Shown: piece after piece, positions 6,629 through 24,220 of the stretch
Numbering within the stretch: position 1 is the first letter of the stretch
How the letters are laid out: every line of letters begins with the position of its first letter
Source of the DNA: a virus
IMG/VR virus record: IMGVR_UViG_3300042935_001072
Location: 1 to 27,909 of that record
DNA length: 27,909 bases
Strand: one strand, 5' to 3'
Notes under the pieces: generated by a model
The model's database searches: none
What the model was told of the DNA's origin: nothing
The model's input: the letters and a program-made list of their open reading frames with translations, nothing else
Translations under genes and position numbers: made by a program

Positions 6629-6796
6629 TTAATCTTCTTTTTTTAATGCAAGACCCAGGCCGTAAACGAATAAAGATACGCCAGATATCCAGAGTCCCCA
6701 TTTTTGAGTGTCTCCACTTAATGTAATTAACACAAGACCAGTACCGCCTAAAGTCCAAGCAAGGTCACTTATACCGTCTTTAAAGTTCTTAAACAT
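6629..6796 (-). CDS. Small two-helix membrane protein (55 aa)
   Basis: A short open frame not easily seen by length cutoffs: ATG at 6796 overlaps the TAA stop of the 704-aa protein (TAATG), with AGGAG six bases upstream. The product has two hydrophobic segments (AWTLGGTGLVLITLSG and WGLWISGVSLFVYGLGLAL) separated by a short polar turn DTQKW, with a lysine-rich end. It precedes the endolysin by 40 bases and could be another holin-type or anti-holin protein; that role is inferred from size, topology and place. Confidence 0.65.
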   Translation of the reverse strand: MFKNFKDGISDLAWTLGGTGLVLITLSGDTQKWGLWISGVSLFVYGLGLALKKED

Positions 6797-8910
6797 TATA
6801 TTCTCCTGGTTGTTGGTGGGGCAGAAAACAAAACAGCAACACCTATACCAATTATGACACGGCGACCACTAACTGGAATTGAAGAACCGAGAGGCACATA
6901 TGTGTCAATCGGACCCGAAAAGACGTTAATTTCAGATTCCATTGATTCTCTGACTTCGGTTGGGGCGTTCTGAACAGCCTCAACAAGTTGTGTTGCTTCT
7001 TCTGGAGTGACGTTAGTTATTTCAACAGCGTCAAAGATTTCTGTTGCTTGGTCCCCATCAATGCTCTCCAAGACTTTTGCACTAGTAGCAAGGTCTGTTG
7101 CTTGGTCTTCGGTAACTCCGTTTTCAATAACTGAGTCAACTGCAGCAGCGACCTGTTCTTCCGTAACTGTTTCTGATTCCAAGACATTGACCAGTTCTTC
7201 AAACTGCTCTTCAGTAAGTGGCTCATCTAAAACAGCATCAATAATTGCATCAAACTTCTCGTCAGTGATTGGCTCGTCAAACACCGCGCCAAGGGCTTCG
7301 GTGAATTGTTCAGTAGTTAGCGGCTCGTCAAAGACCGCCTGCACTGCGGCGTCAAACTGCTCGTCGCTAAGAGTCTTGGTGTCTTCAAAGACCGCGGCTA
7401 CTGCGTCTTCAAACTGAGCATCAGACAATGGACCATCAAAGACCGCCACAACTGCGTCTTCAAATTGCGCGTCTGACAACTTGGTTGGGTCTTCAAATAC
7501 TGCATCTACTGCAGCGGCAAAGTTCTCGTTTGACATGGGACCATCAAAGACCGATTCAATTACGGTGGCAAACTGAGTGTCTGATAGTTCTTGGTCAAGA
7601 AGCGAGTTAACAACAGCGGTTAGTTGTGTTGGTGTTTCGGCGTCTGCCACTAAGTCATCAACTGCGTTGGCAAGTCCTGCATTAGACATAGGGCCGTCAA
7701 AAATATCTGCAACAGCAGCGTCGGCTGCTTCTTGAGTGTCTACAGGAACAACTATCGCCGGTTCGTCCGTTTGTGTTGTTGTCTCTTGTTCTGGGGCATA
7801 TTGTGGTACCGAGGCGGCGGGTCCATCGCCTTCGGGGTAACTTTCGCTCGTGGGTGTCTCAACTGGGGTTACCTCCACTGGTGTATCAAATATTGTTTCA
7901 ATCAATATTGTTGTTGTAGTTGGGGAAATTGGTGTTTCTAGTTCTGGAACCGAGACAGTGGTGTTTTCTGTTGGAGGCATTTCAATGGGTGGGGGCACAA
8001 CATCTGGTTCAGTCGTTGTTGTATTATTAGGTGGTGAAACTATTGTTGTGCTTGTGGTCGTTGTGGGCACTATTGATGTACTTGTGGTACTAGTAGTTGT
8101 CGTGGTCGTAACAGGAGTTGCACTAACGGTATAAGTTTCAACCATTGACGAATAGACACCAAGTGTGTCGTTGTCTGCACGAACCCTAAATTGATACTCG
8201 GTTCCGTTTGTCAGGTTGTAAACAACAGCCCATGTATTTCCAGTTGAAATTGCATAGGAAGTTTCCCAGTTGTCATCGGAGAAGAAAACCGCATAGCGCT
8301 CTGGGTGTGCGTAGCCTTCGCCTTCTTCTGGTGCGTCCCATGAAAGAGCAACGCTCCCTTCATATGGGATTGCACGGAGGTTTGTTGGGGTCCTCATGGC
8401 TAATGGCGGCAAAGTAGTTGTAGTAGTGCTGGTTGTAGTGCTAGTAGTTGTACTGGTCGTGGTTGTCGTGGTACTAGTCGTCGTAGTGCTTGTAGTAGTG
8501 GGTGGAGCGTTTGTCGGAGCAGAACCCGATTCCACTACATACGAAGTTCCGGTCCAACTATTGGGGTTTCCGCAGCAAATGCTTGTACGAAGACGATAGG
8601 TTCCAGTTGCCTGAACATTGTAGGAAATGTAGGAATCCAAGCCGTAGTAGTCATCGTTTACGGCGAGAAGCGTGTCGTTACTGTCGTACAGCCACAGTTG
8701 GCTATCAATTCCATACTGCTGAGCGTAGGTTCTTAGGGTAAAGGTGGTTCCGGCGGCGAGTTCAAAGTAATAATCGTTTGGTCCAGTAGCGGTAAAGGTC
8801 GTGGGACCCTGTTCGCCAGAAGCAAGAGTTTTAGCGATTGGTGCAAATACTGCCAGAAATACAACAGGGACAAAAATCATTAGTCTTGTCAACTGTAAAA
8901 ATTTCTTCAC
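6796..8910 (-). CDS. Secreted surface repeat protein with PPC-like, FnIII and Thr-rich regions
   Basis: A 704-aa protein. I prefer GTG 8910, five bases after a GGGGG run, over the in-frame GTG at 8916. A signal peptide (KKFLQLTRLMIFVPVVFLAV, cut near AKTLASG) is followed by a PPC-like beta domain (about 33-130, with YYFELAAGTTFTLRTY and TGTYRLRTS), a Thr-rich linker (about 137-170), one FnIII domain (about 170-263), a second Thr/Pro-rich linker, then about ten copies of an 18-21 residue helical repeat (about 397-587; typical unit FDGPLSDAQFEDAVAAV). The C-terminus has a short hydrophobic segment (VIIGIGVAVLFSA) and RR. Such Thr-rich, FnIII-bearing exported proteins are typical of actinobacterial cell surfaces, so it may be host-derived. 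Placed in the lysis block, it may alter the host envelope or block superinfection; this is not proven. Confidence 0.7.
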   Translation of the reverse strand: MKKFLQLTRLMIFVPVVFLAVFAPIAKTLASGEQGPTTFTATGPNDYYFELAAGTTFTLRTYAQQYGIDSQLWLYDSNDTLLAVNDDYYGLDSYISYNVQATGTYRLRTSICCGNPNSWTGTSYVVESGSAPTNAPPTTTSTTTTSTTTTTTSTTTSTTTSTTTTTLPPLAMRTPTNLRAIPYEGSVALSWDAPEEGEGYAHPERYAVFFSDDNWETSYAISTGNTWAVVYNLTNGTEYQFRVRADNDTLGVYSSMVETYTVSATPVTTTTTTSTTSTSIVPTTTTSTTIVSPPNNTTTTEPDVVPPPIEMPPTENTTVSVPELETPISPTTTTILIETIFDTPVEVTPVETPTSESYPEGDGPAASVPQYAPEQETTTQTDEPAIVVPVDTQEAADAAVADIFDGPMSNAGLANAVDDLVADAETPTQLTAVVNSLLDQELSDTQFATVIESVFDGPMSNENFAAAVDAVFEDPTKLSDAQFEDAVVAVFDGPLSDAQFEDAVAAVFEDTKTLSDEQFDAAVQAVFDEPLTTEQFTEALGAVFDEPITDEKFDAIIDAVLDEPLTEEQFEELVNVLESETVTEEQVAAAVDSVIENGVTEDQATDLATSAKVLESIDGDQATEIFDAVEITNVTPEEATQLVEAVQNAPTEVRESMESEINVFSGPIDTYVPLGSSIPVSGRRVIIGIGVAVLFSAPPTTRRI

Positions 8911-8912
8911 AT

Positions 8913-8945
8913 ACACCCCCGTGCGTAATCTATTTTAGCACGAGG
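8913..8945 (-). promoter_or_regulatory. Hairpin that could sequester the ribosome site of the surface protein
   Basis: On the minus strand CCCTCGTGC (8945-8937) pairs with GCACGGGGG (8924-8916) in nine base pairs with one G-U wobble and a 12-base loop. The 3' arm holds the GGGGG that serves as the Shine-Dalgarno sequence. No U-run follows, so it is not a typical terminator. A shorter version, ACAC-GGGG-GTGT, lies at the holin-like gene start. Confidence 0.4.
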
Positions 8946-9415: not shown

Positions 9416-10843
9416 TTAAAACACTCCTTCGCAGGTACCACAGAATGTTGCAGTAATTGTACGTACCCCATTGCATGTAGTTACAATGAAGTTACCAGCC
9501 GCATATGTCGCAGGTGGACATGCTGAACAGGTGTCAACAGCCGCTTGTCTGAGAGCCGTTGTAAAGTTTCCAGGAGTGCCAGTGTAGAAATACTGGTCAC
9601 CATTGTACACAAAGTCTGCAGTATCGTTTGTTGTTGTATAAGAAGCGCAACTAGAGCAACTTACGCAACTTCCGCCAGAACATGCAGAATAAGCAGAGGT
9701 GCAGGCGGTTGTTCCATTTGAGTTGTAAATAGTTGACTCATCGTTACCACTTCTTGTCCAGGTATAGCAGTCTCTAGTCTTTGTTTGAGTGCTATTTGTA
9801 CCAGTACTTGGGCCGCAATCACATGCCGCACAAGAACATGACACCGAAGGACACGAGGCAGTGTTGTCGGGTGCTGCACCCAACACCCAACCACCATACC
9901 CAACCGCGGAGATTTCGCTGTATGGACCAGGAATGTTAAGACTGTTAACTGCTGCTACTCTTACTTTTGTTACGGTTGTCGTGTAGCCGGGGTTGAAAGG
10001 TTGAGAAGTAGTAAGGCCGTTGGTTGTTGCTACTGCAGTTGCAAAAGTGGAACCATCGTTAGTTGTTGTCTGATAGACGTACCCAGTAATCGCACTTCCA
10101 CCATTTGCGGTGGGCGCGGTCCAAGCCAACGTATCCGTAGTGCTAGCAGCCGTACCACGGGTCATTGCTCCTATTGTTGGTGCGCCAGGAACAATGTTTG
10201 TAACTACAACATCGGATGGCGTTGATGTAGTGCCTAAACCATTTGGTATGTTCCTTGCCGTAACTTTAAACCTATAAGACTCTCCGTTAGTTAATCCAGT
10301 TACAGATATTGAGGTATTAGCATTTCCTGTGTTTGAAGTAAACTCTATATAACTTGAATAAGGCGACGTGGCATATTCAACCTTGTAACCAGTTATGTCA
10401 GTAAAGTTTGGTCCGGTGTTTGCAGCGGCCGGAGGAGTCCACGTAACAGTTGATGATGTAACTCCATTTGGTGTTCCTTGAACATTGGTCGGCGTACCTG
10501 GAACAGTGGAAGGTGTAGCAGAAGCAGTTCCCGAGTATAAACCAGTTCCAACACTATTGACTGCCGCCACTCGGAAGTAATAAGTGGTTCCGTTAGTTAA
10601 ACCAGTTACGGTTGCCCCTGTTGAGGCATTAACACCGTCAGTAAATGTAGTAACGGCAGAAGCAAATGTTGCCGAAGTTGAATACTGAACAACATAGTCT
10701 TTAATTGGGGAACCACCATTTCTGGCTGGAACAGTCCATGTAAGAACAGATTGTGTGCTTACATTTGAAGTTGCACTAAGACCGGTCGGTTCACTTGGGA
10801 CAGTAACCATGCCCCCAATCATTCCCCCAATTACACCAGTCAT
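9416..10843 (-). CDS. Tail protein with three FnIII domains and a Cys-rich C-terminus, copy 1
   Basis: A 475-aa protein starting at ATG 10843 in a TAATG overlap with the upstream fibre gene. Three fibronectin type III domains occupy about residues 15-320; units such as SVLTWTVPARNGGSPIKDYV and TGLTNGTTYYFRVAAVNSVG are clear. The C-terminal 150 residues are a disulfide- or metal-rich module (CSCAACDCGPSTGTN, CYTWTRSG, GGSCVSCSSC, FCGTCEGVF). No signal peptide is present, which fits a virion protein and not a secreted host one. The same architecture is repeated at 13106-14524. FnIII modules are common on actinophage tails, where they are thought to bind cell-surface sugars or protein; the Cys-rich module may be the receptor-binding tip. 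Confidence 0.75.
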   Translation of the reverse strand: MTGVIGGMIGGMVTVPSEPTGLSATSNVSTQSVLTWTVPARNGGSPIKDYVVQYSTSATFASAVTTFTDGVNASTGATVTGLTNGTTYYFRVAAVNSVGTGLYSGTASATPSTVPGTPTNVQGTPNGVTSSTVTWTPPAAANTGPNFTDITGYKVEYATSPYSSYIEFTSNTGNANTSISVTGLTNGESYRFKVTARNIPNGLGTTSTPSDVVVTNIVPGAPTIGAMTRGTAASTTDTLAWTAPTANGGSAITGYVYQTTTNDGSTFATAVATTNGLTTSQPFNPGYTTTVTKVRVAAVNSLNIPGPYSEISAVGYGGWVLGAAPDNTASCPSVSCSCAACDCGPSTGTNSTQTKTRDCYTWTRSGNDESTIYNSNGTTACTSAYSACSGGSCVSCSSCASYTTTNDTADFVYNGDQYFYTGTPGNFTTALRQAAVDTCSACPPATYAAGNFIVTTCNGVRTITATFCGTCEGVF

Positions 10844-13105: not shown

Positions 13106-14524
13106 TTAACAAGGGTCACCGAATACGTTAAGACAAGGCTCACTGGAAGTAAGGTTAATTGTATTTGTTCCGTTACAGACCGTAACAGAATAGAAAGCAT
13201 TGCTGAAACCGCAAGCGCCACAGGTTGGGTTAGGGAACGCATAGTACGAACCAGGGGTGCCAGTGTAGGTGTAATCTATTCCGCCCTGGCTGAAATCGCC
13301 TGTCTTGGCTGCGCTTGTGTAAGAGCCACAACCGGTACAACTGGTACAAGTTCCACCCGTGCAACTGCCGTAAGCGCCACTGCAAGCAGCGCTGTTGTCT
13401 GAGTTGCGTAGTGGACCCGGGGTGGAACTAGTAGCAGTCCTGGTCCATCTGTAGCAAAGTCTACTTCCAGTCCGGGTGGTGTTGGTTCCTGTACTTGTTC
13501 CGCAATCACAAGCAGCACAGTCGCATGCTACTGAAGCACACGTTCCTGAATCTGTATATCCACCAAAAGCCCAAGCAATACTGGCCTCGGTAGTAAGCCC
13601 GCTCGCATAGGGCCCTTGACCAACACCATTAACGCCACTGGCTCTTACTTTCCAACGGTCAGTTCTGTACTGGGTAGCCAAAGCCACAGATAGACCAGCA
13701 ACTTCCGTATATCCATTTAGAGTTCCACCAATATTGCTGTACCAAGTGGTTCCGTTGTCGTTAGTAACCTGATATCTGTATGCAGTTACGGTGGAGCCAT
13801 TAGATGCTGCTTGACTCCATGTAAACGTATCTGTTGTATCACCATGTGTTATTATTGCCGTTCCAGGAGGGCCTGGAACAGTCGCTGGAACCGCGCCTGC
13901 AGAAATAGTGGAGTACGAACTATCTCCGGCACAGTTTGTTGCTTTTACTCGGAAGTAATAAGTTGTTCCATTGGTCAGGCCATTCACTATCAACGGAGAC
14001 GATGATGATGTTGTTCCAAAAGTAGTAACAGAAGAGGCAAATGTTGAAGAAGTTGAGTACTGAACCGTGAACGTAAACGGAGGTCCGTTGCCACCAGTTC
14101 CGGCTCCGCTTGGTGCAACCCAAGACACAGAAGATTCTCCGTTTGCATTGGACGTACCCGACACACTGGTTGGAGCGTTGGGAACAGTTGCAGGAGTTAT
14201 CACTGTAGACACGCCCGAGTAAGAGCCAGTTCCGTATGTGTTGACTGCTGCTACTTTAAAATAGTACGTCGTTCCGTTAGAGAGACCAGTTACTGTTGCT
14301 CCAGTTGATGCAGATGTGCCATCCGAGAACGTGGTCCAACCACTGGTACCGTTAGTGGAGTATTGAACCACGTAGTCAGTGATTGCAGAACCACCATTGT
14401 TTGTTGGTGCGGTCCAAGAAAGAACAGACTGAGCGTTTGCGCATGTTGTAGCCGTAGGTGTTCCGGGAGTGCCTGGTACTGTGCCCAGAAAACCACTTGC
14501 TACGGTTCCTCTATGAAAAGGCAT
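13106..14524 (-). CDS. Tail protein with three FnIII domains and a Cys-rich C-terminus, copy 2
   Basis: A 472-aa protein starting at ATG 14524 in a TAATG overlap with the collagen-like gene. Three FnIII domains (for example SVLSWTAPTNNGGSAITDYV, TGLSNGTTYYFKVAAVNTYG) precede a Cys-rich module (CDCAACDCGTSTGTN, LCYRWTR, GGTCTSCTGCGSY). Its first FnIII domain and the start of its Cys module are strongly similar to copy 1 at 9416-10843, while the middle FnIII domains and last 60 residues differ more, which suggests duplication followed by divergence at the tip. The presence of two such proteins suggests two receptor-binding specificities. Confidence 0.75.
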   Translation of the reverse strand: MPFHRGTVASGFLGTVPGTPGTPTATTCANAQSVLSWTAPTNNGGSAITDYVVQYSTNGTSGWTTFSDGTSASTGATVTGLSNGTTYYFKVAAVNTYGTGSYSGVSTVITPATVPNAPTSVSGTSNANGESSVSWVAPSGAGTGGNGPPFTFTVQYSTSSTFASSVTTFGTTSSSSPLIVNGLTNGTTYYFRVKATNCAGDSSYSTISAGAVPATVPGPPGTAIITHGDTTDTFTWSQAASNGSTVTAYRYQVTNDNGTTWYSNIGGTLNGYTEVAGLSVALATQYRTDRWKVRASGVNGVGQGPYASGLTTEASIAWAFGGYTDSGTCASVACDCAACDCGTSTGTNTTRTGSRLCYRWTRTATSSTPGPLRNSDNSAACSGAYGSCTGGTCTSCTGCGSYTSAAKTGDFSQGGIDYTYTGTPGSYYAFPNPTCGACGFSNAFYSVTVCNGTNTINLTSSEPCLNVFGDPC

Positions 14525-15318
14525 TACGCGCTCAAGTCGCCAATAAGTACATAACTGTTGGTCGTGATACAGAATAATGTAGCCGAAGAATATTGAGCAC
14601 GAAGTTTTAATCCAGGAGTAGCAACTGGAACTGCAGTGCCATTAAATGTTACGTTGCCGGTTCCAAAACGAAGAAAATCAATGCTTTGTCCTGCCGTTAT
14701 GCCGATACCACTATTTACGGTGATATTAATATCTCCACTATTTGTGAGTTGAATCAACTTGCCAACGTCAGATGAAGATGGAGTGTATGTTGCACCTGAA
14801 ACAATTATTTGTGAAGTTGCCCACGTCCCTTGCGTTCCCGATGCTCCAGAAACTCCCGAGACGCCACTAACTCCAGATACTCCAGATACTCCTTGTGCTC
14901 CAGAAACTCCCGAGACGCCCGAGACTCCAGAAGCACCTTGCGGACCAGACACGGTAGAGGCAGTTCCACTTACACCAGAAACACCCGAAGCGCCCGACGG
15001 CCCTGTTGCGCCGATAACGCCAGAGACACCGCTTACACCGGAGACACCGCTAGGACCAGGAACCCCAGAAACACCCGAAACACCCGAAGCGCCCGACGGC
15101 CCTGTTGCGCCGATAACTCCGCTGACCCCCGAGATGCCTGAAATTCCGGAAACGCCCGAAACTCCACTAACCCCAGATACGCCACTGGGTCCTGTTGGAC
15201 CAACAACACCTAAAGAGTCAACATTGAGCGCCCACTTACCATCCGTGTATGTCCACGTTTTGCCGTTTACGGTGTGGTTGTCACCTGGTGCAGGTGAGTT
15301 TGGGAAATCAATAGCCAT
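14524..15318 (-). CDS. Collagen-like tail fibre protein
   Basis: A 264-aa protein with AGGGGC before ATG 15318. It starts MAIDFPNSPAPGDNHTVNGK and TWTYTDGKWALN, a standard short attachment domain of phage collagen-like fibres. Residues about 38-165 are uninterrupted Gly-X-Y triplets, mainly GVS with GAS, GPT, GPS and GAQ. The final 95 residues form a beta head domain (YTPSSSDVGKLIQLTNSGDI to YVLIGDLSA) like that of the fibre at 10843-11748. Triplets with Ser at Y and few prolines are usual in phage collagens, which form trimeric rods. Proline is almost always at the X position; one GVP triplet places it at Y. Confidence 0.8.
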   Translation of the reverse strand: MAIDFPNSPAPGDNHTVNGKTWTYTDGKWALNVDSLGVVGPTGPSGVSGVSGVSGVSGISGISGVSGVIGATGPSGASGVSGVSGVPGPSGVSGVSGVSGVIGATGPSGASGVSGVSGTASTVSGPQGASGVSGVSGVSGAQGVSGVSGVSGVSGVSGASGTQGTWATSQIIVSGATYTPSSSDVGKLIQLTNSGDINITVNSGIGITAGQSIDFLRFGTGNVTFNGTAVPVATPGLKLRAQYSSATLFCITTNSYVLIGDLSA

Positions 15319-15342: not shown

Positions 15343-16092
15343 CTATTGAGCCTTGGCCCACTGAATGACTTTTCGGCTTGTGTGCTGTGCAATGCAGTTG
15401 TCCCCAATTGAGGTGATGTCATAACCAAGCGACTCAACATAGGCAATAATCTCCTTACGCCGTTCTTGGTACCAGTCCATAATGCTCCACGTCTCAAAGA
15501 TGATGGGTGGATAATTGTTTGCCTTGAGGGTTTCTAGACCGCCCTTAATAACAGCCAACTCAAGACCCTCAACATCTATCTTGATGAGCCTGATGTTCTG
15601 AAATCCGTAATCGTCCAGTCGGTCAATCTGTATCTTTTCCAGCCTGCCCTGACTGGCGCAAACATTGTTATTCTCTTGAACGCCAGCATCCAGACTGAAA
15701 GCACCGATATTCACTTCAACGGAATAATCAGGAGTAAATATTTCAACCTCAGCCGCAGTCTCTCCGAGACCCTTGTTTGTCAAATGAACATTCTCTAGGC
15801 CATTCAAAACAACATTGGCGCACAACTGATAGAAAACTATCCTCTGTGGTTCAAAACCGTAGAACTCAATACCAGGGAATTGTTTAGCCAAAGGAACAAC
15901 ATAGGTTCCGATATTGCTGCCGATATCTAGGACTACTCCGTCCTTGTTGTCTCCGACCAGGATTGTTGAATAATATTCCAGCCATGCGTCATGACCGGCA
16001 CCTGACCGAAGCCCGTCACTGATTACGTCAGGCTTATCAAAGATAAGGAACTGGTTTCCCCTGCATTGAACTACGAGCATATTAGGCAGCAT
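15343..16092 (-). CDS. FkbM-family SAM-dependent methyltransferase
   Basis: A 249-aa protein with the SAM-binding motif VVLDIGSNIG (53-62), the acidic F-E-P segment (80-82) and the FkbM signature KIDVEGLE (171-178), followed by GGLETLKANN and IIFETW. FkbM enzymes O-methylate sugars or other hydroxyl groups. The gene ends the modification cassette and lies directly upstream of the collagen-like fibre gene, so it may methylate a hydroxyl made by the oxygenases or a sugar added by the glycosyltransferase. An alternative ATG at 16080 would remove four residues; neither start has a clear Shine-Dalgarno sequence. Confidence 0.85.
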   Translation of the reverse strand: MLPNMLVVQCRGNQFLIFDKPDVISDGLRSGAGHDAWLEYYSTILVGDNKDGVVLDIGSNIGTYVVPLAKQFPGIEFYGFEPQRIVFYQLCANVVLNGLENVHLTNKGLGETAAEVEIFTPDYSVEVNIGAFSLDAGVQENNNVCASQGRLEKIQIDRLDDYGFQNIRLIKIDVEGLELAVIKGGLETLKANNYPPIIFETWSIMDWYQERRKEIIAYVESLGYDITSIGDNCIAQHTSRKVIQWAKAQ

Positions 16093-16103
16093 AGAAATTT
16101 ATT

Positions 16104-16388
16104 CTAAACCCACCAAAAGTGTTTTAGGATAGAAAGACTGGCCAAGATAACCCAAGCCACATTGAATAGAATGATTGTAGGAAGAGTCTTTTCGGTAGAT
16201 GACCAAATCAGGGCAATGCTTGAAGCGATAGCGAAGATATAAACCCACCACCACTGGTAGCCAAGAAGCAAGCCGGGAAAGATAATGGCGATTTTGGTAG
16301 CAAAACCCCACGCCTCTACGATGTTGGGTTTAGTCCAATACCCCTTGTGAGACATTGTCTTGGTTGCTTGTATTACTTTGTTTATCAC
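16104..16388 (-). CDS. Small membrane protein, three helices
   Basis: The 94-aa frame starts at GTG 16388, three bases after the upstream stop; an internal ATG at 16355 is a possible alternative. After SHKGYWTKPNIVEAWGFATK come three hydrophobic segments (IAIIFPGLLLGYQWWWV, YIFAIASSIALIW, IILFNVAWVILASLSIL). Trp-rich loops recall the short PnuC-like protein at 2427-2657, but I see no close match. It is embedded in the modification cassette, so it could supply a membrane step such as anchoring or transport. The role is unknown. Confidence 0.55.
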   Translation of the reverse strand: MINKVIQATKTMSHKGYWTKPNIVEAWGFATKIAIIFPGLLLGYQWWWVYIFAIASSIALIWSSTEKTLPTIILFNVAWVILASLSILKHFWWV

Positions 16389-16391
16389 GTT

Positions 16392-17057
16392 CTATCTACT
16401 CATGTCATTTACGAAAGCACGGGCTTCATCGGCGCGATATTGCTCGTACTGTTTTTCAATTGATTTTTCTTCTACGACTGGTTTTTCTATTAATTTTAGA
16501 TGAGAATTTTCTTTTTTGTCATATGCATGACTGGCCCAAGGACCGTTGGCGTCAACGTAATGATAGAACCCTTGAATGTGGTACGAATCTTGAGGGACGT
16601 TAAATACGGGTCGGAAATGATTTACTTCCATTCCTTTGTACACAGCGCCGTCTCCTGGCTTCATTGCAATAGGGGTATCGCCCATAACTAGGGGCCACTC
16701 ATAGTCTTTGCCACGGTAGTTGTACTCATAGCAAACGCTTACAGATATTTCGCAAGCAGGTCGGTCTATGTGTGGAGTCAGTTCCTGACCGCGTCTATAA
16801 ACCCTGTAAAAAGAGTATGTAGGAATTAGTGATAATCCTGTAACTTCTTCTACCTTCTCTTTATAGTCAAGCAATAGGGACTCCATTAAGAAGTCTGCAT
16901 AAACAGCGTGAGCATTGATTACCTGTGCTGTATCTGGACTGAAAGAATATGCTTCTTTCAGGAGTGCGTATTTTGACACAACAGACACGACAGAGGCGTC
17001 TGCAAAATTGGGCACATAGACATAGTTGTCTGTAGAAAAGTTTTCAGACTTACTCAT
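16392..17057 (-). CDS. 2-oxoglutarate/Fe(II)-dependent oxygenase, phage type
   Basis: I start at ATG 17057, which overlaps the previous gene's stop by eight bases; the frame from 17096 lies further inside that gene. The 221-aa protein has FYRVYRRGQELTPHIDR with the metal pair H96 and D98, then CEISVSVCYEYN, WPLVMGD, and KPGDGAVYKGMEVNHFR with the distal ligand H147. The order Y-R-x-Y-x-x-G-x-E-L-x-x-H-x-D-R-x-x-C-E-I-S-V, then G-D-x-x-x-Y-x-G-x-E, is familiar from 2OG oxygenases of marine phages. Substrates are mostly unknown. It is adjacent to a second oxygenase of a different subtype. Confidence 0.8.
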   Translation of the reverse strand: MSKSENFSTDNYVYVPNFADASVVSVVSKYALLKEAYSFSPDTAQVINAHAVYADFLMESLLLDYKEKVEEVTGLSLIPTYSFYRVYRRGQELTPHIDRPACEISVSVCYEYNYRGKDYEWPLVMGDTPIAMKPGDGAVYKGMEVNHFRPVFNVPQDSYHIQGFYHYVDANGPWASHAYDKKENSHLKLIEKPVVEEKSIEKQYEQYRADEARAFVNDMSR

Positions 17058-17631
17058 AGCGCAGCCACGTGACAAGAGAGTATCTGATTCCCTCACTTAC
17101 GGGGTGAACGATATGTGGAAATGAATAGCAAGACGGAAAAAACACGACGTCGCCAGCAGACGGTTGGTACGTTATTCCTAGAGTTGGAAACTCTAGTTTT
17201 CCTCCCTCAAAGTCGTCGTTCAAAAAAGCAATCATGGACAGGACCCTGTCTTTGTGGTCACCACCACAATCAAAGTGTTGCTTATATTGTGTTCCTTTTT
17301 CATATTTTAAAATAAAATACCCTTCATCAACCAGTCCGCCCAAACTGTGGTGTTCGGCATATTCTGAAGTGGCTCCAGTAACTGCGTTAAAAACATATTC
17401 ATCAAGTTTCTGTGTACCGCCATCAATTATGATGTGGTTTGGTAAGTGTATTAACTTGTTGCTTCTGTATAGATTCTGAATATTTGGATTGTCTCTATCT
17501 TCAAAAGTGCTGGCGTATACCCAGTTTAAAGAAATGTCGCTGTCTATTGCTTTTTCTATAGAGTCAATAATAATTTTAGGTTCACTCAACAACTTGTCGT
17601 AAACCCATAACGAAGGGTGTAGTACTTGCAT
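17050..17631 (-). CDS. Prolyl-4-hydroxylase-like 2OG-Fe(II) oxygenase
   Basis: A 193-aa protein with the P4H-type core: YKQHFDCGG (H119, D121), then MIAFLNDDFEGGKLEFPTLG, AGDVVFFPS, and HIVHPVSEGIRYSLVTW with the distal His H176 and the 2OG-binding R183. The L-N-D-x-F-x-G-G-x-L-x-F-P and H-x-V-x-x-G-x-R patterns are standard for prolyl hydroxylase-type oxygenases. The start ATG 17631 overlaps the upstream stop in TAATG. Collagen-like proteins are made by the same region, so proline hydroxylation of fibres is a tempting idea, but few Y-position prolines exist in them, and other residues or small molecules are equally possible. Confidence 0.85.
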   Translation of the reverse strand: MQVLHPSLWVYDKLLSEPKIIIDSIEKAIDSDISLNWVYASTFEDRDNPNIQNLYRSNKLIHLPNHIIIDGGTQKLDEYVFNAVTGATSEYAEHHSLGGLVDEGYFILKYEKGTQYKQHFDCGGDHKDRVLSMIAFLNDDFEGGKLEFPTLGITYQPSAGDVVFFPSCYSFPHIVHPVSEGIRYSLVTWLRYE

Positions 17632-18374
17632 TATTTTTCTTTTTTGGCTAGTTCAGTATCCACTCTGTGCTTATGCCGTCTATATGGTCCTGCGGTTCCT
17701 AGTGAAGGCATGATGTATCCCGACCCAAAGCCACTGTTTGCAACATACTTAAAATAAGATTCGTCTTCAAACTCAATGGATGAAAGATTAGTGCTTCGTT
17801 TAAATGGGACTACCTGCATCATAGGAGTTCCATAAGGAATCATAAAGTCTGTATTTGCTTTTATGTTTAAAACGATATTACTTACATGATAAAAATCTGT
17901 ATGAACTATTGCTGGCAAAACATCATAGTTCTCGTTTGGTTCCCAAGACAATGGGAGTATCAATGATGACCATCCTGGAGCAGTTTCAAAACGCCACGGA
18001 CTTACAATTTTTGGGTATTGCATATTCTCTAGTTTGCGAATACCAACAACAGGACATCCTGGCGTGTCCTGAACAGGAAATCCTTGAACCGATATGTTTT
18101 CAAGTGGTGGATTCATGTTCTCCATGCGTGATTCCCAGAAACCACCTTCTGGGTTTGGTCTGAAAAATAGATTGCTCCAAAGAGGAACAGTCATTCCCGC
18201 TGAAAGATAGTCATTAACGCCTGCACACTTTTTTAAACCTGCACCGCTTGGCATTGTCTTGTACCACTTAGGCATTGTTAGTTGTGAGTTCAAATACGGA
18301 GGCATCTCCATTAGACGATTGTCTTCTGGGGTTACTCTAATATGTCCTGGCTTTACTGGTTTTTTCTTTTTCAC
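17631..18374 (-). CDS. Unknown protein of the halogenase cassette
   Basis: A 247-aa protein starting at GTG 18374, which overlaps the halogenase stop in a GTGA junction. It is basic at both ends (MKKKKPVKP; YRRHKHR near the end). The body contains LTMPKWYKTMPSG, PLWSNLFFRPNP, MQYPKIVSPWRFETAPGWSS and IPYGTPMMQVVPFKR, with many aromatics and prolines, and no transmembrane segment or Cys-rich module. The I-P-x-G-x-P-x-x-Q-V-x-P-F piece is reminiscent of a double-stranded beta-helix or dUTPase-like core, but this is weak. I believe related proteins sit beside halogenases in cyanophage genomes; I cannot verify that here. Its tight coupling to the halogenase suggests that the two work on one target. 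Confidence 0.5.
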   Translation of the reverse strand: MKKKKPVKPGHIRVTPEDNRLMEMPPYLNSQLTMPKWYKTMPSGAGLKKCAGVNDYLSAGMTVPLWSNLFFRPNPEGGFWESRMENMNPPLENISVQGFPVQDTPGCPVVGIRKLENMQYPKIVSPWRFETAPGWSSLILPLSWEPNENYDVLPAIVHTDFYHVSNIVLNIKANTDFMIPYGTPMMQVVPFKRSTNLSSIEFEDESYFKYVANSGFGSGYIMPSLGTAGPYRRHKHRVDTELAKKEK

Positions 18375-19867
18375 TGTTTATATTCCTCGTCTAGGTGACC
18401 AATCTCCAGCAATCCAATCTTGTGGTCAATCAGTTCGTGATTGTGTCTAGAGTTCCTAAAGTTGTCCATTTCCATATTGACTTTTTGCCGTAAATTTAGT
18501 CTATCAAGAGCAAGTGATGATGGCTCTTTCGGCAACAACCCCTGCCCCTGCATGACGTGAACTAAGTGAGGGACATGAAACATTAAGTTAGGTTCTTGGT
18601 ATGGGTCGTACCTGGATGGTGCTTTTTCTGACCATAAATCAATTAATTCTTCAAGTTCGTCATTTAGTGGCATTGTTGCTTGGTCTGTCCAGAATTGGGT
18701 ATCTCGTCTATCGGAAACATAGTGCAGTCTAATCATTGTAAGAATGTTTCTCATTGTTTGCGTAATTGTTTTATTGTAGGCAATTTGCATTTTTGATGAC
18801 TTTTTAGTGTATGAAGCAACGTTTTGAATAAGAACCTTTAATTGAATTAAAGTACTTCCAATACTGGTGGCTTCCAGTGGTTCAACAAACGACGAAGCAA
18901 GACCCACGGAAACACAGTTTTTTACCCACTGATTTTTTAAGAACCCTGCGTCGTATTTAAAAGTTTTAGGATTTTCTGGGACCTTATACCCGGTCATCGC
19001 TTCCGCTTCTTCAATAGCCTTGTCTGTAGAGATGTGGGCGGAAGAAAAAATGTAACCATTGCCGCGACGTTCTTGTGTTGGTATTTCAAACATCCACCCA
19101 GAAGATGCTGCTCTTGCACGAGTATATGGTCGTATTTGCCCATTAGGGTCGGACTCTGTTGGAAAAGCAATTGCCGAGTCACAAAGAAGATATGGTGAAA
19201 AAGACTCCCACTCCGTATTTCCTAGTTTTGTCATAAGTACTCTAGAAAAACCAGTAGCGTCAATCCAGAAATCAGCAGAAACAATTGATTGCTGTTCTGT
19301 TGTTACGGAAGATATTTCACCAGTTTCAGAATCAAGTTCTATTGAATCTACTTCAGCATCAATAAACTTAATCATTCTTGAAAAACACAAACCAGTTAAG
19401 TAGTCATTCAGTTTGTTGGTATCAAAATGAAACTGGTTTGTTGTCATGTGAATGTTTCGTCTACCAATCTTGTTTTGCACAAGACCAACACTTCCAGTTT
19501 GGGAAGTGATTAGTTTATTGGAATCAATAAAACCTGCATAGGTAGCATATAAGCCGTGTGCAAAGATTTCATCCACTCCGCCAATGCTATGAAAGTAGTC
19601 AGGAGTATGTGTTGTCCAATTTTCAAAACGAAGACCATACTTGTGGGTTGCACTTGTGTTTTCAATGAGTTCACTAGTTGGGATGTCGCATTGATTCATG
19701 AACTCACGCCAATGTTCTGTAGAACCTTCGCCAACGCCAATAATACCTATTTTGGAAGAGGAGATTATTGTAATTTCGGAGTTCGTAAAAGCCCGTCGCA
19801 GCATTAAGGCAGAAACTAACCCAGCGGTTCCCGAACCAACAATGCAAAACGATAAATTGTTATTCAT
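18371..19867 (-). CDS. Flavin-dependent halogenase (tryptophan-halogenase family)
   Basis: A 498-aa protein with all main motifs of the family: the FAD-binding GSGTAGL (11-17), GVGEGST (44-50), the catalytic lysine K76 in THKYGLRFENW (equivalent to PrnA K79), a W-x-x-x-I-P variant GWMFEIP (257-263) in place of W-x-W-x-I-P, and FVEPLEATS (327-335) with the conserved Glu. The usual size is about 500 aa, so it is complete. Family members use FADH2, O2 and halide to form HOX held by the lysine. A phage relative, VirX1 of a cyanophage, is known to halogenate and prefers iodide. TAGGTAAAA precedes ATG 19867. The substrate here is unknown; no flavin reductase is seen in the window. Confidence 0.85.
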   Translation of the reverse strand: MNNNLSFCIVGSGTAGLVSALMLRRAFTNSEITIISSSKIGIIGVGEGSTEHWREFMNQCDIPTSELIENTSATHKYGLRFENWTTHTPDYFHSIGGVDEIFAHGLYATYAGFIDSNKLITSQTGSVGLVQNKIGRRNIHMTTNQFHFDTNKLNDYLTGLCFSRMIKFIDAEVDSIELDSETGEISSVTTEQQSIVSADFWIDATGFSRVLMTKLGNTEWESFSPYLLCDSAIAFPTESDPNGQIRPYTRARAASSGWMFEIPTQERRGNGYIFSSAHISTDKAIEEAEAMTGYKVPENPKTFKYDAGFLKNQWVKNCVSVGLASSFVEPLEATSIGSTLIQLKVLIQNVASYTKKSSKMQIAYNKTITQTMRNILTMIRLHYVSDRRDTQFWTDQATMPLNDELEELIDLWSEKAPSRYDPYQEPNLMFHVPHLVHVMQGQGLLPKEPSSLALDRLNLRQKVNMEMDNFRNSRHNHELIDHKIGLLEIGHLDEEYKQ

Positions 19868-19873
19868 TTTTAC

Positions 19874-20953
19874 CTACGAATATGCGATGTAAGACTTGAT
19901 GTAATTAACATCAAGAATCCACTGACTCTGTGTCAAGTCGGTGAATGGCGGAATTTGCTCCAATATTTCCATAGGAGACAAGGACAACTCTATACCATGC
20001 CTAATGCAGATTTCGTATATCTTTGATTCAATGTACTGCCGTTCCGAAGAAAGTACTTCTTCTGGGACAACGGGAGGAGAAGGGTGGTTGTGCACCAAAG
20101 CATTTAATGTTCTGTATCGGTGGGTGCCCTTTATCCAGTTCAAAAAAAGTGGCCCAACACTAATTTGCTCAGTAAAACCACTGCGAGCATTTTCCTGATT
20201 ACTAAAGTAACGGTACAGGGGCATGTCTTCTTGATGCTCAGATATTTCTGCTAATACGTTTTCTGGTATTTGAAGAGTGTTGATGTAGTTTTTGCACAGT
20301 AAAGCAACCCTGTCTGTGCTATTGAATGGTTCGTCAGCAAGGGACGCCCATTCAATAATGAGTTTCATTAGACCTGTCAATGTTTTAGACATGCTTGACA
20401 CAGCAGGCCAATCCCTAAAAGAGGTCCCCAATCCAGGCACCGCACCATACACGATATTCCCAACACCAGCAGAGGCAAGCATTATCGTGGCCTTGGTAAT
20501 GTGTTTAAATAAAGAAATATCTGTTGGCGTAGGACGTACACCGTCTTCTAACAAAAGCATGGCAGGTCCGTATTTCCCTGCATCACAACGGTCAACTAAC
20601 TGAAGAGCCTCGGTTTTTACAAAAGCAGGGGTCATCACCTTAGACGGCATTATGCAATACATGTCTTGTTCTTTAATATCTTCTTTGGAAAGATGTTGCA
20701 AAATATCGTCGTAACAAATAGCGTCAATAATTGACTCTTTGTTATCACAAACTAGAACGTAATTAAAGTCCCCTGAATAAGGGTCTAGTTCTTTAAAAGC
20801 AATAATTATTTTATCCGCTGAAGTAAATACGTCATATTCGGTGTACTCAATATTCCCGCTAGGCGTCGGGGTATACAGCCTAAAATCAGTTACGCTATCA
20901 AAACTGTAGTAGCACTTATAATTTGCTGTATCTATTAGCGAAATATCGCTCAT
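19874..20953 (-). CDS. Unknown 359-aa protein at the start of the modification cassette
   Basis: This protein starts at ATG 20953 with AAAGG upstream and stops six bases before the halogenase. It begins MSDISLIDTANYKCYYSFDS and contains ATIMLASAGVGNIVYGAVPG, KTLTGLMKLIIEWASLADEP, HRYRTLNALVHNHPSPPVVP and a long amphipathic C-terminal helix region. It has no membrane anchor, Cys motif or repeat. I do not recognise a family. Because it is the first gene of a run of coupled genes and lies between a small helical protein and the halogenase, it may be a partner or substrate carrier for the enzymes; this is inference from position only. Confidence 0.55.
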   Translation of the reverse strand: MSDISLIDTANYKCYYSFDSVTDFRLYTPTPSGNIEYTEYDVFTSADKIIIAFKELDPYSGDFNYVLVCDNKESIIDAICYDDILQHLSKEDIKEQDMYCIMPSKVMTPAFVKTEALQLVDRCDAGKYGPAMLLLEDGVRPTPTDISLFKHITKATIMLASAGVGNIVYGAVPGLGTSFRDWPAVSSMSKTLTGLMKLIIEWASLADEPFNSTDRVALLCKNYINTLQIPENVLAEISEHQEDMPLYRYFSNQENARSGFTEQISVGPLFLNWIKGTHRYRTLNALVHNHPSPPVVPEEVLSSERQYIESKIYEICIRHGIELSLSPMEILEQIPPFTDLTQSQWILDVNYIKSYIAYS

Positions 20954-20963
20954 TTTTTACCTT

Positions 20964-21191
20964 TTATGATAGTTCGGCAATTTTTGCTTCTGCACGTGCA
21001 ATGTTGGTCAATAACGACCTTACTCGTGCTTCATTACCTGTTGGCGGTTCTTCAGGTACCCAGGTTGCTAAGTCAAATTCGTCGGGGTCAATCCCTAGTC
21101 CTACAAGGAGGCCGTACACTTCATTAAGCATATGCCTCTTCGTCTCCCTGAGTGAGTTAAGTTTTTGTTCTGCAGTTAAGTTGAATTCCAT
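20964..21191 (-). CDS. Small helical hypothetical protein
   Basis: A 75-aa acidic protein with CGGAG five bases before ATG 21191. It has two predicted helices (TAEQKLNSLRETKRHMLNEV and ARVRSLLTNIARAEAKIAEL) around a loop GLGIDPDEFDLATWVPEEPP. The helices could form an antiparallel coiled coil, as in small chaperones or capping proteins of phage fibres. It lies between the large adhesin gene and the modification cassette, in the same direction, and could serve either. Similar short proteins occur in cyanophage tail regions, but I cannot name one. Confidence 0.5.
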   Translation of the reverse strand: MEFNLTAEQKLNSLRETKRHMLNEVYGLLVGLGIDPDEFDLATWVPEEPPTGNEARVRSLLTNIARAEAKIAELS

Positions 21192-21206: not shown

Positions 21207-23453
21207 TTAAGCGTTAAGAAGGATATAAGTAGTTCCAGAAGAAGCCGTATAAACATCGGATACTGCTGTAGTGCCAGAACGCACATCGTAGGACAATCCA
21301 GACGGTGTAGTTTCTGTCAAGATAAGAATAGCACCACCGCCACCTGCTCCGCCTCTTACTCCACTTGCGCCTGTAACTGAAGGTGAACCCGCTCCACCTG
21401 CTCCGCCGTTTCCTCCGGCTCCACCAATGCCACCTGCTACGCCAGCGCCTCCAGCACCTCCGGTACCTCCAGTACCGCCTCCGCCTCCTGCGCCTCCATG
21501 ACCGCCTGCGCCACCTGCTCCCCCAGCGCCTCCAAGACCTCCTGCGCCACCTGCGCCACCTGCGCCACCTGCGCCACCTGCGCCTCCGGCCCCCCCAGCG
21601 CCTCCTGCGCCTCCGGCTCCGCCTGCTCCACCAACGTAATGAACGGTTGGATTGGCGTGGTGATGAGCATGAGAGGGCACGTGCTGTTGATGATGTGGAT
21701 GTGTAGTGTGATGAGGATGAGTGTGGTGATGTCCACCATTAACATGATGGTGACCACCGGGCGTAGTGTGGTGACCGCCATTAACAGTATGTCCAGCATA
21801 ATAACCAGACTTAGCGTTGTGTGAATCACAACAATGATGGTGTGGGTTTACGTGGTGATGAGGATGAGTGTGATGATGAGGGTTCACATGATGATGCCCA
21901 CCAGGGGTATGATGGTGGCCATTAGGGGAGTGATGTGGAGTTGAATGGTGAGTTTGGCCAGCCGAATGCGGAGTAACCGTGTAGTCGGGCGCTTTAGTTC
22001 CGGCGGCACCCGTAACTCCAGTAGCACCCGTCGTTCCTGTGGCTCCCGTCGTTCCTGTGGCTCCAGTTGTTCCCGTGGCTCCAGTGGTTCCTGTGGCCCC
22101 AGTGGTTCCTGTGGCTCCAGTTGTTCCTGAAACTCCTGAAACCCCCGAAATGCCACTAACTCCAGCAGCGCCCGTTGTTCCGCTTACACCGCTTACACCA
22201 GAAACTCCCGAAACTCCGGAAACCCCAGATGCACCAGATGCACCAGTGAGACCTGTTGCGCCGACAGCACCAACCATTCCAAGAGACATTACTGTTCCGG
22301 TACCTATGATTGTCTTGGCAATGATGGCAACTACTGGTCCACCCGAACCGCCCGTTCCTCCTGAGCCGCCCGCTCCAGCAATTCCTGTTGCACCGGTTGC
22401 TCCACTTGCGCCGCTTGCTCCGCTTGCACCGCTTGCACTAGTTCCGCCTCTTGCTCCGCTTGCTCCGCTTGCACCGCTTGCACCTGTTGCGCCACTTGCC
22501 CCACTTGCACCAGTTCCGCCTCTTGCACCAGATGCACCACTTGCACCAGTTCCACCTCGGGCACCACTTGCCCCACTTGCACCAGTTCCGCCTCTTGCAC
22601 CAGATGCACCACTTGCTCCCGAATAACCCCTACCGCCAGCAGCGCCTACTGTTCCACCGTCAGTAGGGTGGCCTCCCGCCGTTCCTGTGGCACCTACTGA
22701 CCCCACTGGACCCAATAGTCCTGTTGCACCTGCTGACCCCGTTGCGCCTAAAAGTCCTGTTGCACCTGCAAGTCCTGTTGCACCAGCAAGTCCTGTTGCG
22801 CCTGCGGCCCCCGCCGAACCAGCAAGTCCTGTTGCACCTGCAAGTCCTGTTGCACCAGCAAGTCCTGTTGCACCTGCAACTCCTGTTGCGCCTGCAAAAC
22901 CTGTTGCTCCACTAATGCCAGACCACGGTGCGGTTGGAACTGGAGTTGTTGCGCCCGTAGCGCCAATCGTTCCCTTGGAACCTCCTGCTAATGGGGTGGG
23001 TGTGGGGCCGTAGACAGCATCAATAATTGCGCCACCAAGCATTGAAGTAACACTTTTAAGAAGATATGTAGGAAGAGCACTGACGTTTGGGTCGGTGTTT
23101 CCTCCGCCTTGTCCACCTAGTCGGTAAGTAATGGCACCAGAAGTGTGACCAGACAATGTTCCAGAAGACACAGCAGAGGCTGAACTAACAATTGTTCCAT
23201 TACTAGAACCAGCAGTGTTACCAGTGACATCACCAATACCAACAACACCATTAATAGTTGCAGTACCTTTAACAAATATTTTAAAACCTGCGGTAAGAAG
23301 AATGTTTCCCAAAGGAACAGTTAGTGTGTTGTAGTGCATATCCCTTGTAAGGGTTACGGTTCCACTGATGGTTACGTCGCCATCTGCGCCATTTCCGTAA
23401 ACAGCGTCATTTCCTGAACGAACAACGCTTGTTTCAATTCTTGAAATTGCCAT
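21207..23453 (-). CDS. Giant composite tail adhesin: collagen-like, His-rich and poly-GGA domains
   Basis: A 748-aa protein. Residues 1-150 form a beta domain (YGNGADGDVTISGTVTLTRD, FKIFVKGTATING) shared with the next gene upstream. Residues about 177-480 hold Gly-X-Y triplets in several styles ([30 protein letters not shown]), broken by a beta segment near 370-395. Residues about 490-605 are a histidine-rich block with some 43 His, many as HHH or HTHPHHH, plus CC. Residues about 605-700 are nearly pure GGA/AGG repeats, then a C-terminal strand set (GGAILILTE to TYILLNA). Poly-glycine repeats recall the polyglycine-II receptor-binding head of phage S16 gp38; clustered His recall the H-x-H iron sites of T4 gp37. 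It is likely a receptor-binding fibre, with metal binding inferred. Confidence 0.7.
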   Translation of the reverse strand: MAISRIETSVVRSGNDAVYGNGADGDVTISGTVTLTRDMHYNTLTVPLGNILLTAGFKIFVKGTATINGVVGIGDVTGNTAGSSNGTIVSSASAVSSGTLSGHTSGAITYRLGGQGGGNTDPNVSALPTYLLKSVTSMLGGAIIDAVYGPTPTPLAGGSKGTIGATGATTPVPTAPWSGISGATGFAGATGVAGATGLAGATGLAGATGLAGSAGAAGATGLAGATGLAGATGLLGATGSAGATGLLGPVGSVGATGTAGGHPTDGGTVGAAGGRGYSGASGASGARGGTGASGASGARGGTGASGASGARGGTGASGASGATGASGASGASGARGGTSASGASGASGASGATGATGIAGAGGSGGTGGSGGPVVAIIAKTIIGTGTVMSLGMVGAVGATGLTGASGASGVSGVSGVSGVSGVSGTTGAAGVSGISGVSGVSGTTGATGTTGATGTTGATGTTGATGTTGATGTTGATGVTGAAGTKAPDYTVTPHSAGQTHHSTPHHSPNGHHHTPGGHHHVNPHHHTHPHHHVNPHHHCCDSHNAKSGYYAGHTVNGGHHTTPGGHHHVNGGHHHTHPHHTTHPHHQQHVPSHAHHHANPTVHYVGGAGGAGGAGGAGGAGGAGGAGGAGGAGGAGGLGGAGGAGGAGGHGGAGGGGGTGGTGGAGGAGVAGGIGGAGGNGGAGGAGSPSVTGASGVRGGAGGGGAILILTETTPSGLSYDVRSGTTAVSDVYTASSGTTYILLNA
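21320..21640 (-). repeat. Gly-Gly-Ala coding tandem repeats
   Basis: The C-terminal third of the composite adhesin is encoded by tandem 9-base units, for example the plus-strand string GCCACCTGC repeated perfectly five times around 21545-21590. It translates on the minus strand as (GGA)n with few interruptions. This is a recombination-prone, low-complexity stretch and explains the many open frames seen in other directions. Confidence 0.8.
21640..21980 (-). repeat. Histidine-rich coding repeats
   Basis: The minus strand encodes a repeat of the type (N/G/P)-HHH-(T/V)-(P/N)-x with about 43 His in about 115 residues. Units such as GGHHHVNPHHHTHPHHH recur, with a central CCDSHN break. On the plus strand it reads as GATGATG/GTGGTGA-rich DNA with no other clear function. 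Confidence 0.75.
22492..22616 (-). repeat. Exact 53-base direct repeat, 72-base period, in the GAS collagen block
   Basis: Bases 22492-22544 and 22564-22616 are identical over 53 bases and lie 72 bases (24 codons, eight triplets) apart, in frame. Sequence identity at this level inside an already repetitive block indicates recent duplication. Confidence 0.85.
22752..22871 (-). repeat. Exact 48-base direct repeat, 72-base period, in the GLAGAT collagen block
   Basis: Bases 22752-22799 and 22824-22871 are identical over 48 bases, again 72 bases apart. The 18-base subunit AGTCCTGTTGCACCTGCA (plus-strand view) repeats through the block. Confidence 0.85.
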
Positions 23454-23455
23454 AG

Positions 23456-24220
23456 TTAGACCTGCTGAATGTAATTTACAGTTCCAGCGTTTGCTCCGGT
23501 TACATCTGTTGAGATAGTACCAGGGAGTGCGCTTGCGGAAGAGACTATGAGTATGACGCCACCACCAGCGGGTGCAGTTGCTGGTGCTTGAATATATCCA
23601 GTTCCAGATGATGGACCGCTGATGTAACGAGCAGCAAGGATGACAACTCCGCCACCTGCCTGTCCAGTACTACCAGCGCCTCCACGAAGGAACATAGGTC
23701 CTCCTGTTGCCGTTATGGTGTATCCAGTGATTGCCTGCATTGGTTGTTTGAAGTAACCAAGTCCACCCATTGTTGCATGAGGCGCAGTGGCTGTATAGGT
23801 TGCAGTTGCGTTACCGCCAAGACTGTGTGTCACTGACGTAGTTGCTGCTCCACCTTGCATGATTGAACCCAAAGATGCGTATCCAGTCGTAAAGCCAACA
23901 ATAGAACTTGTACCAAAACGTAAGGTTCCCTTAACAAAGATTCTGTAACCGTTAGGGGCCAGACGAACGCTGTTGCCCAATGTCAAATCGTTAAAATACA
24001 TATCTCGCGTCATGGAGTAAACGCTCGCAGATGGAACCATGCTTAAGACTGTTGTTGTTCCGTCTAAGGTGGCATCACCGTCAGCACCTGTTCCGTAGAT
24101 GGAGTCAACGCTTTCGTTGAAGTAAGCGTTCCATACATAACCGTCCCATTGCCAACTCTTAGGGCCAATAGTAAAAATCTGATATTGATACGGAGAAGCA
24201 GGAAAAGTAATCGCTGACAT
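23456..24220 (-). CDS. Tail fibre protein with GADGD beta domain
   Basis: A 254-aa protein beginning SAITFPASPYQYQIFTIGPK and SWQWDGYVWNAYF, a common fibre attachment start, then YGTGADGDATLDGTTTV, MTRDMYFNDLTLGNSVRLAP and YRIFVKGTLRFG, a beta domain widespread in phage tail proteins. The end (GGGVVILAARYISGPSSG, GGGVILIVSS, VNYIQQV) has the same layout as the end of the 748-aa adhesin. The two genes thus seem to be paralogues; the adhesin has a roughly 500-residue repetitive insertion between shared ends. ATG 24220 overlaps the stop of the upstream collagen-like gene (TAATG). Confidence 0.75.
   Translation of the reverse strand: MSAITFPASPYQYQIFTIGPKSWQWDGYVWNAYFNESVDSIYGTGADGDATLDGTTTVLSMVPSASVYSMTRDMYFNDLTLGNSVRLAPNGYRIFVKGTLRFGTSSIVGFTTGYASLGSIMQGGAATTSVTHSLGGNATATYTATAPHATMGGLGYFKQPMQAITGYTITATGGPMFLRGGAGSTGQAGGGVVILAARYISGPSSGTGYIQAPATAPAGGGVILIVSSASALPGTISTDVTGANAGTVNYIQQV

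Follow-up and report, generated by a model that had tools for sequence, protein, structure and literature searches.

The stretch of DNA analysed here (the window) is a virus record of 27,909 bases in IMG/VR, IMGVR_UViG_3300042935_001072, which was first annotated from the sequence alone. On its minus strand, at 15343–20953, it carries seven open reading frames (ORFs), among them a putative flavin-dependent halogenase, which lie between genes for fibre proteins. In many aquatic phages, including the cyanophage from which VirX1, the first viral halogenase to be characterised, was obtained, a halogenase, its fixed partner P247 and enzymes of the hydroxylase type are encoded directly behind a fibre rich in Gly and often in His. 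This arrangement suggests that these phages alter their own fibres chemically.

Organisation of the gene run in the window

All seven ORFs are present on the minus strand. In order of transcription they are P359 (19874–20953), the halogenase HAL (18371–19867), P247 (17631–18374), an oxygenase of the 2-oxoglutarate (2OG)-Fe(II) type resembling prolyl 4-hydroxylase (P4H193, here P4H; 17050–17631), OX234 (16392–17096), MEM94 (16104–16388) and an FkbM-family methyltransferase (15343–16092; PF05050, TIGR01444, E 5e-23). P359 and HAL are separated by 6 bases, HAL and P247 overlap by 4, and P247 and P4H by 1. P4H and OX234 overlap by 8 bases counting from the likely start of OX234, ATG 17057, and by 47 from an upstream GTG. 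The spacing is then 3 bases between OX234 and MEM94, and 11 between MEM94 and FkbM. The description of these genes in the initial annotation, as seven coupled same-strand genes with small gaps or overlaps, is therefore accurate, and so is its placement of the enzyme set within a fibre locus, since fibre genes adjoin both sides.

On the 5' side, the fibre gene col748 (21207–23453) is followed after 15 bases by p75 (20964–21191), which encodes a small helical protein, and this after 10 bases by P359. On the 3' side, 24 bases separate FkbM from col264 (14524–15318), a collagen-like fibre protein to judge by its composition. These genes form part of a longer same-strand run. P359 is preceded in it by col595, p254 (23456–24220, minus strand), col748 and p75, while col264 and FN472 come after FkbM, spaced on that side by no more than 24 bases. 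The run extends past both ends of 15343–20953. A promoter scan found no excess over shuffled sequences.

A Pfam scan of the window proteins found no family for P359, P247, OX234 or MEM94, the last being a small hydrophobic protein that has no PHROG family either. Comparison with two relatives gave ratios of non-synonymous to synonymous substitution (dN/dS) of about 0.04 for HAL, 0.05 for P247 and 0.09 for P4H, and 0.12–0.13 for P359. Because these values are low, as under purifying selection, and because the gene order recurs in dozens of contigs, the gene set is not a product of chance.

Constant and optional genes in related loci

IMG/VR was searched using P359, HAL, P247 and p254 as queries, and the contigs found were mapped for gene order. 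Counts are given per cluster of halogenases at 90% identity (n=46); clustering at 75% gives the same picture. The loci were gathered by means of genes of the module itself, which biases the counts, although the separate queries agree.

P247 is adjacent to the halogenase in 45 of the 46 clusters, and in the exception (L120, with the order P4H, P247, P359, HAL) it is one gene away. A fibre ORF of the p254 type, at least 350 residues long, is found near the halogenase in all 40 testable clusters, p75 in all 43, and P4H in 37/39. The other members are optional, with P359 in 26/39 clusters, MEM94 in 24/34, OX234 in 2/32 and FkbM in 1/28. There is consequently a near-constant group of five, namely a p254-family fibre rich in Gly and His, p75, a P4H-like oxygenase, the halogenase and P247, while the seven genes do not constitute a single fixed and complete set. 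The initial annotation had regarded them as a complete unit, which cannot be maintained: OX234, FkbM, MEM94 and P359 are each present in some loci and missing from others, and in three close relatives (L014, L020 and L028) the halogenase and P247 are present and both oxygenases are absent. It had also raised the prospect of the same genes being scattered singly among related phages. This is true of P359, of FkbM and, distantly, of the P247 family (in HF2 and S-RIM4), and is not true of the core of halogenase, P247 and fibre.

The p254 protein, which is Gly-rich and shares its N-terminal domain with col748, is a constant upstream marker of this island. As the sole query it retrieved 61 loci with a halogenase and no clear exception: where the halogenase is missing, the contig ends at or just past the fibre, p75 or P4H, and one further match (L258) lies at a contig edge in an inverted arrangement. 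Departures from the usual layout leave the central pair intact. In L155–L158, P247 precedes HAL and the fibre is on the opposite strand, with HAL and P247 still together. In L069 and L070 a further unit stands in tandem. It has a p254, fibre, p75 and P4H of its own and continues into a second halogenase, which lies at the edge of the stretch.

Among the long records that contain the window-type module, 15/16 carry WhiB, which belongs to Actinomycetota and the phages that infect them. The single relative that a scan of genome contigs yielded is 9 kb long and was binned as a metagenome-assembled genome of Actinomycetota. We therefore place the window-type module in actinophages, and it appears to occur in these as well as in cyanophages.

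The clearest cyanophage example is the locus of VirX1 in Syn10, where two tail-fibre genes (phrog_863) are followed by two halogenases. The second of these, CPUG_00131, is VirX1 itself (6qgm, residues 1–530, 1271 bits). The next gene, CPUG_00130, belongs to PHROG 7084 (E 2e-71) and has an E-value of 3e-10 against the profile of P247; a 2OG oxygenase comes one small gene later. The VirX1 locus is thus an island of fibre, halogenase, P247-family and 2OG oxygenase genes in one operon, in the same order as in the window. It differs in having two halogenases, and fibres with the Gly_rich_2 domain of the cyanophage fibres in place of collagen-like or His-rich ones. A P247-family gene also adjoins the halogenase in S-RIM44, P-TIM40 and S-CREM1. 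A search with this cyanophage P247 gave 80 further loci, not de-replicated, with a halogenase within two genes in 80/80, 2OG oxygenases in 79/80, often in series, and Gly-rich ORFs within the covered stretch in 71/80. The link between the enzymes and the fibre proposed in the initial annotation is therefore kept in both groups of phages. It is worth adding that S-CREM1 (L277, 8616–13236) has seven consecutive genes for 2OG-type oxygenases, together with a JmjC gene, behind its halogenase and P247-like gene.

A partial parallel is found in the Actinomycetia phage DSL-LC01, which like the window has collagen genes, a 456-residue ORF, a halogenase and a glycosyltransferase in a row. In contrast to the window, P247 and the His-rich fibre are absent, and the halogenase is only 26% identical. 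The paper describing this phage mentions a Trp 7-halogenase homologue only (PMC10611076).

The proteins of the island

HAL matches PF04820 with an E-value of 1e-102 and is, on the basis of its motifs, assigned to the flavin-dependent halogenase family. The GxGxxG motif that binds FAD, the catalytic Lys (K76) and the catalytic Glu (E332) are invariant among 73 halogenase sequences; the second Trp of the WxWxIP motif is Trp in 62 of them and Phe in 11. The claim that the enzymes carry their key residues consequently holds for the halogenase (73/73), and for the HxD motif of P4H (80/80); OX234 has an HxD but no significant Pfam match. A sequence search of the PDB gives BrvH (6frl, E 1e-57) as the closest solved structure, ranking above PrnA. 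The local alignment of HAL with PrnA stops at PrnA residue 431, and so before the tyrosines that hold Trp in PrnA, which we take to be Tyr443 and Tyr444.

Halogenases of the BrvH type (6FRL, and Xcc4156, 6Y1W) are the top sequence matches in the PDB and have the same catalytic motifs as HAL, from which they differ in being bacterial. BrvH has a pocket open to solvent and does not halogenate free Trp (PMC5945002). In a related locus, MT835646 (L181), genes for TonB-receptor-like, SapC-like and cupin_8 proteins lie beside a Trp halogenase. This record and MT837902 (L183) are filed as phage and look bacterial. Profile comparison shows no kinship between P247 and the SapC-like protein found beside bacterial halogenases.

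In spite of the similarity of the loci, HAL does not appear to group with VirX1. In a small tree, the clade of the window HAL joins the halogenases of P-SSM2, S-H38 and S-SCSM2R (support 0.998), and Syn10 CPUG_00132, the VirX1 paralogue that represents Syn10 in this tree (VirX1 itself was left out), falls outside the clade. Sequence identity between the window HAL and the Syn10 halogenase it matches is about 28%, and VirX1 is the weakest PDB match of HAL among the matches listed.

P247 (phrog_7084, E 2e-24) is predicted to have a dUTPase-like fold. Its AlphaFold2 model (pLDDT 87) was matched by Foldseek to dUTPases with an E-value of 2e-4 and TMt of about 0.5–0.7, and a profile search aligns it with dUTPase motifs 3 and 4. 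At motif 3, where dUTPases have ID or VD, the position of the catalytic Asp is occupied by His (His158) in 33 and by Asn in 6 of the 39 window-type family sequences; the cyanophage branch retains Asp. Since this catalytic Asp has been lost, an active dUTPase is not supported in the window family, and our reading is that P247 probably no longer hydrolyses dUTP.

P4H is predicted to be a P4H-like 2OG-Fe(II) oxygenase (PF13640, E 1e-15), and its PDB match is a bacterial P4H (E 9e-9). Apart from the HxD, the distal His of the site is found in 62/80 sequences as aligned, and the Lys or Arg in 79/80. OX234 (phrog_2954, E 2e-43) is probably a second 2OG oxygenase: its HxD reads HID, and it is 43% identical to a protein encoded two genes from the Sf-CH11 halogenase. 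The label "ferrochelatase" given to phrog_2954 has nothing here to support it and is not used, and neither is the label "DNA endonuclease V" that a library or depositor has attached to 2OG-like proteins.

P359 represents a new phage family, with a predicted Ig-like β region at the N-terminus and a helical C-terminus. Its AlphaFold2 model is confident (pLDDT 90) and has no significant match in the PDB; among predicted viral structures (BFVD) there are three matches, all from uncultured phages. It occurs in long and short forms, usually together with a p75-like gene, which the short form usually follows, in fibre loci where no halogenase can be seen. The proposal that P359 is a specific partner of the halogenase was rejected, given these loci, its absence from 13/39 clusters and the lack of a PDB match; it behaves as an optional protein of fibre loci. 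In one such locus (L159, 7900–10342), p75 and P359 have a 142-residue ORF and a P4H beside them and the stretch covered contains no halogenase, making this a halogenase-less variant. In five other loci a protein of 226–248 residues is encoded directly upstream of the halogenase, after a p75-sized ORF (L060, 5828–6508; L063, 5757–6464; L089, 5771–6466; L102, 5784–6494; L110, 5735–6478). It may take the slot of P359, and the two examples tested both had weak methyltransferase-like Pfam matches. The p75 profile matches the C-terminus of long P359 weakly (hhalign probability 76%), and p75 is possibly an adaptor for fibre assembly.

The fibre protein col748 (PF01391, E 3e-20) contains 29% Gly and 6.3% His, and has collagen-like repeats, a His-rich segment, a poly-GGA stretch and a conserved C-terminal domain. 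The long p254-type ORFs are built similarly. Both their N-terminal domain and their C-terminus are conserved, and between these lie collagen-like repeats, then a variable segment, then Gly repeats; in the variable segment as many as about 40 in 110 residues can be His. His makes up 4.4–11.6% (median 8.1%) of 60 different fibres adjacent to a halogenase. For the 176 other Gly-rich ORFs in these loci the median is 0.7%, and 13 of them also reach 4%. No His-rich, Gly-rich ORF was found in the P359 loci that lack a visible halogenase (L131, L144, L151, L159 and L160). All 60 of the adjacent fibres have at least 8 Tyr. Pro is rare at the Y position of the collagen Gly-X-Y triplets (3/231 in the window fibres, 353/6349 over all loci), so that classical prolyl hydroxylation of collagen is poorly supported as the main role of P4H.

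Some other proteins of the window deserve mention. A 706-residue protein (6796–8916, minus strand) has a likely signal peptide, a mucin-like stretch rich in Thr and a hydrophobic segment at the C-terminus. It appears to be exposed at the surface and is found again in related phages. The FnIII proteins at 13106–14524 and 9416–10843 (minus strand) share a Cys-rich C-terminal domain, and each has a 67-residue ORF beside it. The fibre region is adjoined by an HslV/proteasome-like peptidase (1761–2375, minus strand) and a metallophosphoesterase (2666–3910, minus strand).

A proposed role in fibre modification

On the basis of these observations, we hypothesise that the island serves to modify a virion protein, by halogenation and hydroxylation of the adjacent fibre or adhesin after translation. 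We regard this as the probable explanation, favoured because the link between halogenase, P247 and fibre is conserved in actinophages and cyanophages; fibre decoration was also the leading suggestion of the initial annotation, and the comparisons support it, the fibre being the substrate that we infer. The fibre or adhesin (col748 in the window, the Gly_rich_2 adhesins in cyanophages) would be made along with HAL, P247 and the 2OG oxygenase or oxygenases. P247 would present the fibre polypeptide to HAL, or position it at the open active site, and HAL, using FADH2 from the host, oxygen and halide, would halogenate aromatic side chains of the fibre before or during assembly, most likely those of Tyr and possibly those of His. 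The P4H-like enzyme would hydroxylate other residues. The modified fibre might gain stability, an ability to bind metals or surfaces, or diversity in host recognition. A more specific version, in which a dedicated system of flavin halogenase acting on Tyr and His, with a dUTPase-fold guide, matures the tail-fibre adhesins and is also the native role of VirX1, seems to us about evenly balanced.

There are precedents for the chemistry. Flavin halogenases that act on peptides and proteins are known, such as the leader-guided brominase and ChlH, which like the proposed system use ribosomal products as substrate (PMC10286304, PMC12518702). They differ in that no precursor of the leader type is seen here, the proposed substrate being a large structural fibre and the partner a dUTPase fold. 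The skeletons of sponges contain halogenated Tyr and His (PMC8659048). In S-SZBM1 the structural proteins gp51–54, encoded upstream of the halogenase gp46, were detected in the virion, and the text reporting this does not name gp46 and gp48–50; this fits an enzyme that acts before release, and is weak evidence.

Several points weigh against modification of the fibre. No modified fibre residue has been observed, and the scan of the window proteins did not turn up a flavin reductase. Trp is absent from 4/60 of the adjacent fibres, and is therefore ruled out as a universal target in this fibre. P247-family proteins are also seen away from halogenases, those of HF2 and S-RIM4 included. The halogenases of P-SSM2, S-PM2, S-B64, S-MbCM6 and S-SSM6a lie outside such fibre islands, and phage halogenases may therefore have other roles. 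Lastly, co-localisation may partly reflect shared late expression, or the swapping of host-range modules.

The readings so far published concern small molecules. Phage halogenases have been treated as auxiliary metabolic genes, with protection against antibiotics as the role suggested in cyanophages (PMC2984593, PMC9964418), and the S-SSM6a genes as a cluster for secondary metabolism or capsule decoration (PMC7824862). By analogy, the enzymes could produce a halogenated metabolite (an indole or Trp derivative, or an antibiotic) in the course of infection, or decorate a polysaccharide of the host surface, their site among fibre genes being incidental. VirX1 uses many small aromatic compounds (PMC8407142), and glycosyltransferase and FkbM genes are close by. 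However, no scaffold-building enzymes, nor any precursor resembling that of a ribosomally synthesised and post-translationally modified peptide, were found among the window ORFs scanned, though the host genome could supply them; the context of the S-SSM6a cluster is unlike this island; and the linkage to a Gly-rich fibre persists in both groups of phages while FkbM and OX234 are readily lost. We consider this reading unlikely, and modification of the fibre the best explanation; chemistry on free Trp or antibiotics is harder to reconcile with the genes around the halogenase.

A somewhat smaller chance attaches to the idea that the enzymes act on another virion protein or on a host receptor, with the fibre merely a neighbour. 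The operon does hold several fibre genes (col595, p254, col264 and FN472), but the only structural genes constant over the whole set are p254 and the long Gly/His fibre, and the tandem second unit of L069 has a fibre of its own. Least probable by some way is modification of nucleotides or DNA, in which P247 would be a nucleotide-binding relative of dUTPase, the 2OG enzymes TET/JBP-like, and nucleobases the substrate of the halogenase. The fold of P247 is dUTPase-like, genes for ribonucleotide reductase are found close to its relatives in HF2 and S-RIM4, and P4H also matches Tet_JBP, though weakly (E 0.0017). Against this, all 39 window-type sequences have His or Asn for the motif-3 Asp, P4H matches 2OG-FeII_Oxy_3 and bacterial P4H far better, and the island is surrounded by fibre genes and not by DNA genes.

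Phage halogenases, including VirX1, have usually been presumed to take part in antibiotic or Trp chemistry. VirX1 has been described by its activity on small molecules, and mention of neither a link to fibres nor P247 was found in the open-access texts on phage halogenases that were searched, a set without the original VirX1 paper, absence there being no proof of novelty. The conserved island points to a definite candidate substrate, the fibre protein, and to a partner that had gone unnoticed, and it is present in cyanophages cultured in the laboratory (Syn9/Syn10, S-RIM44, P-TIM40 and S-CREM1), so that fibre modification can be tested by mass spectrometry of virions. If it is correct, halogenation would join the known chemistry of virus particles, there would be protein halogenases with a natural targeting subunit, and a structural protein of a virus would for the first time be seen to be halogenated by an enzyme.

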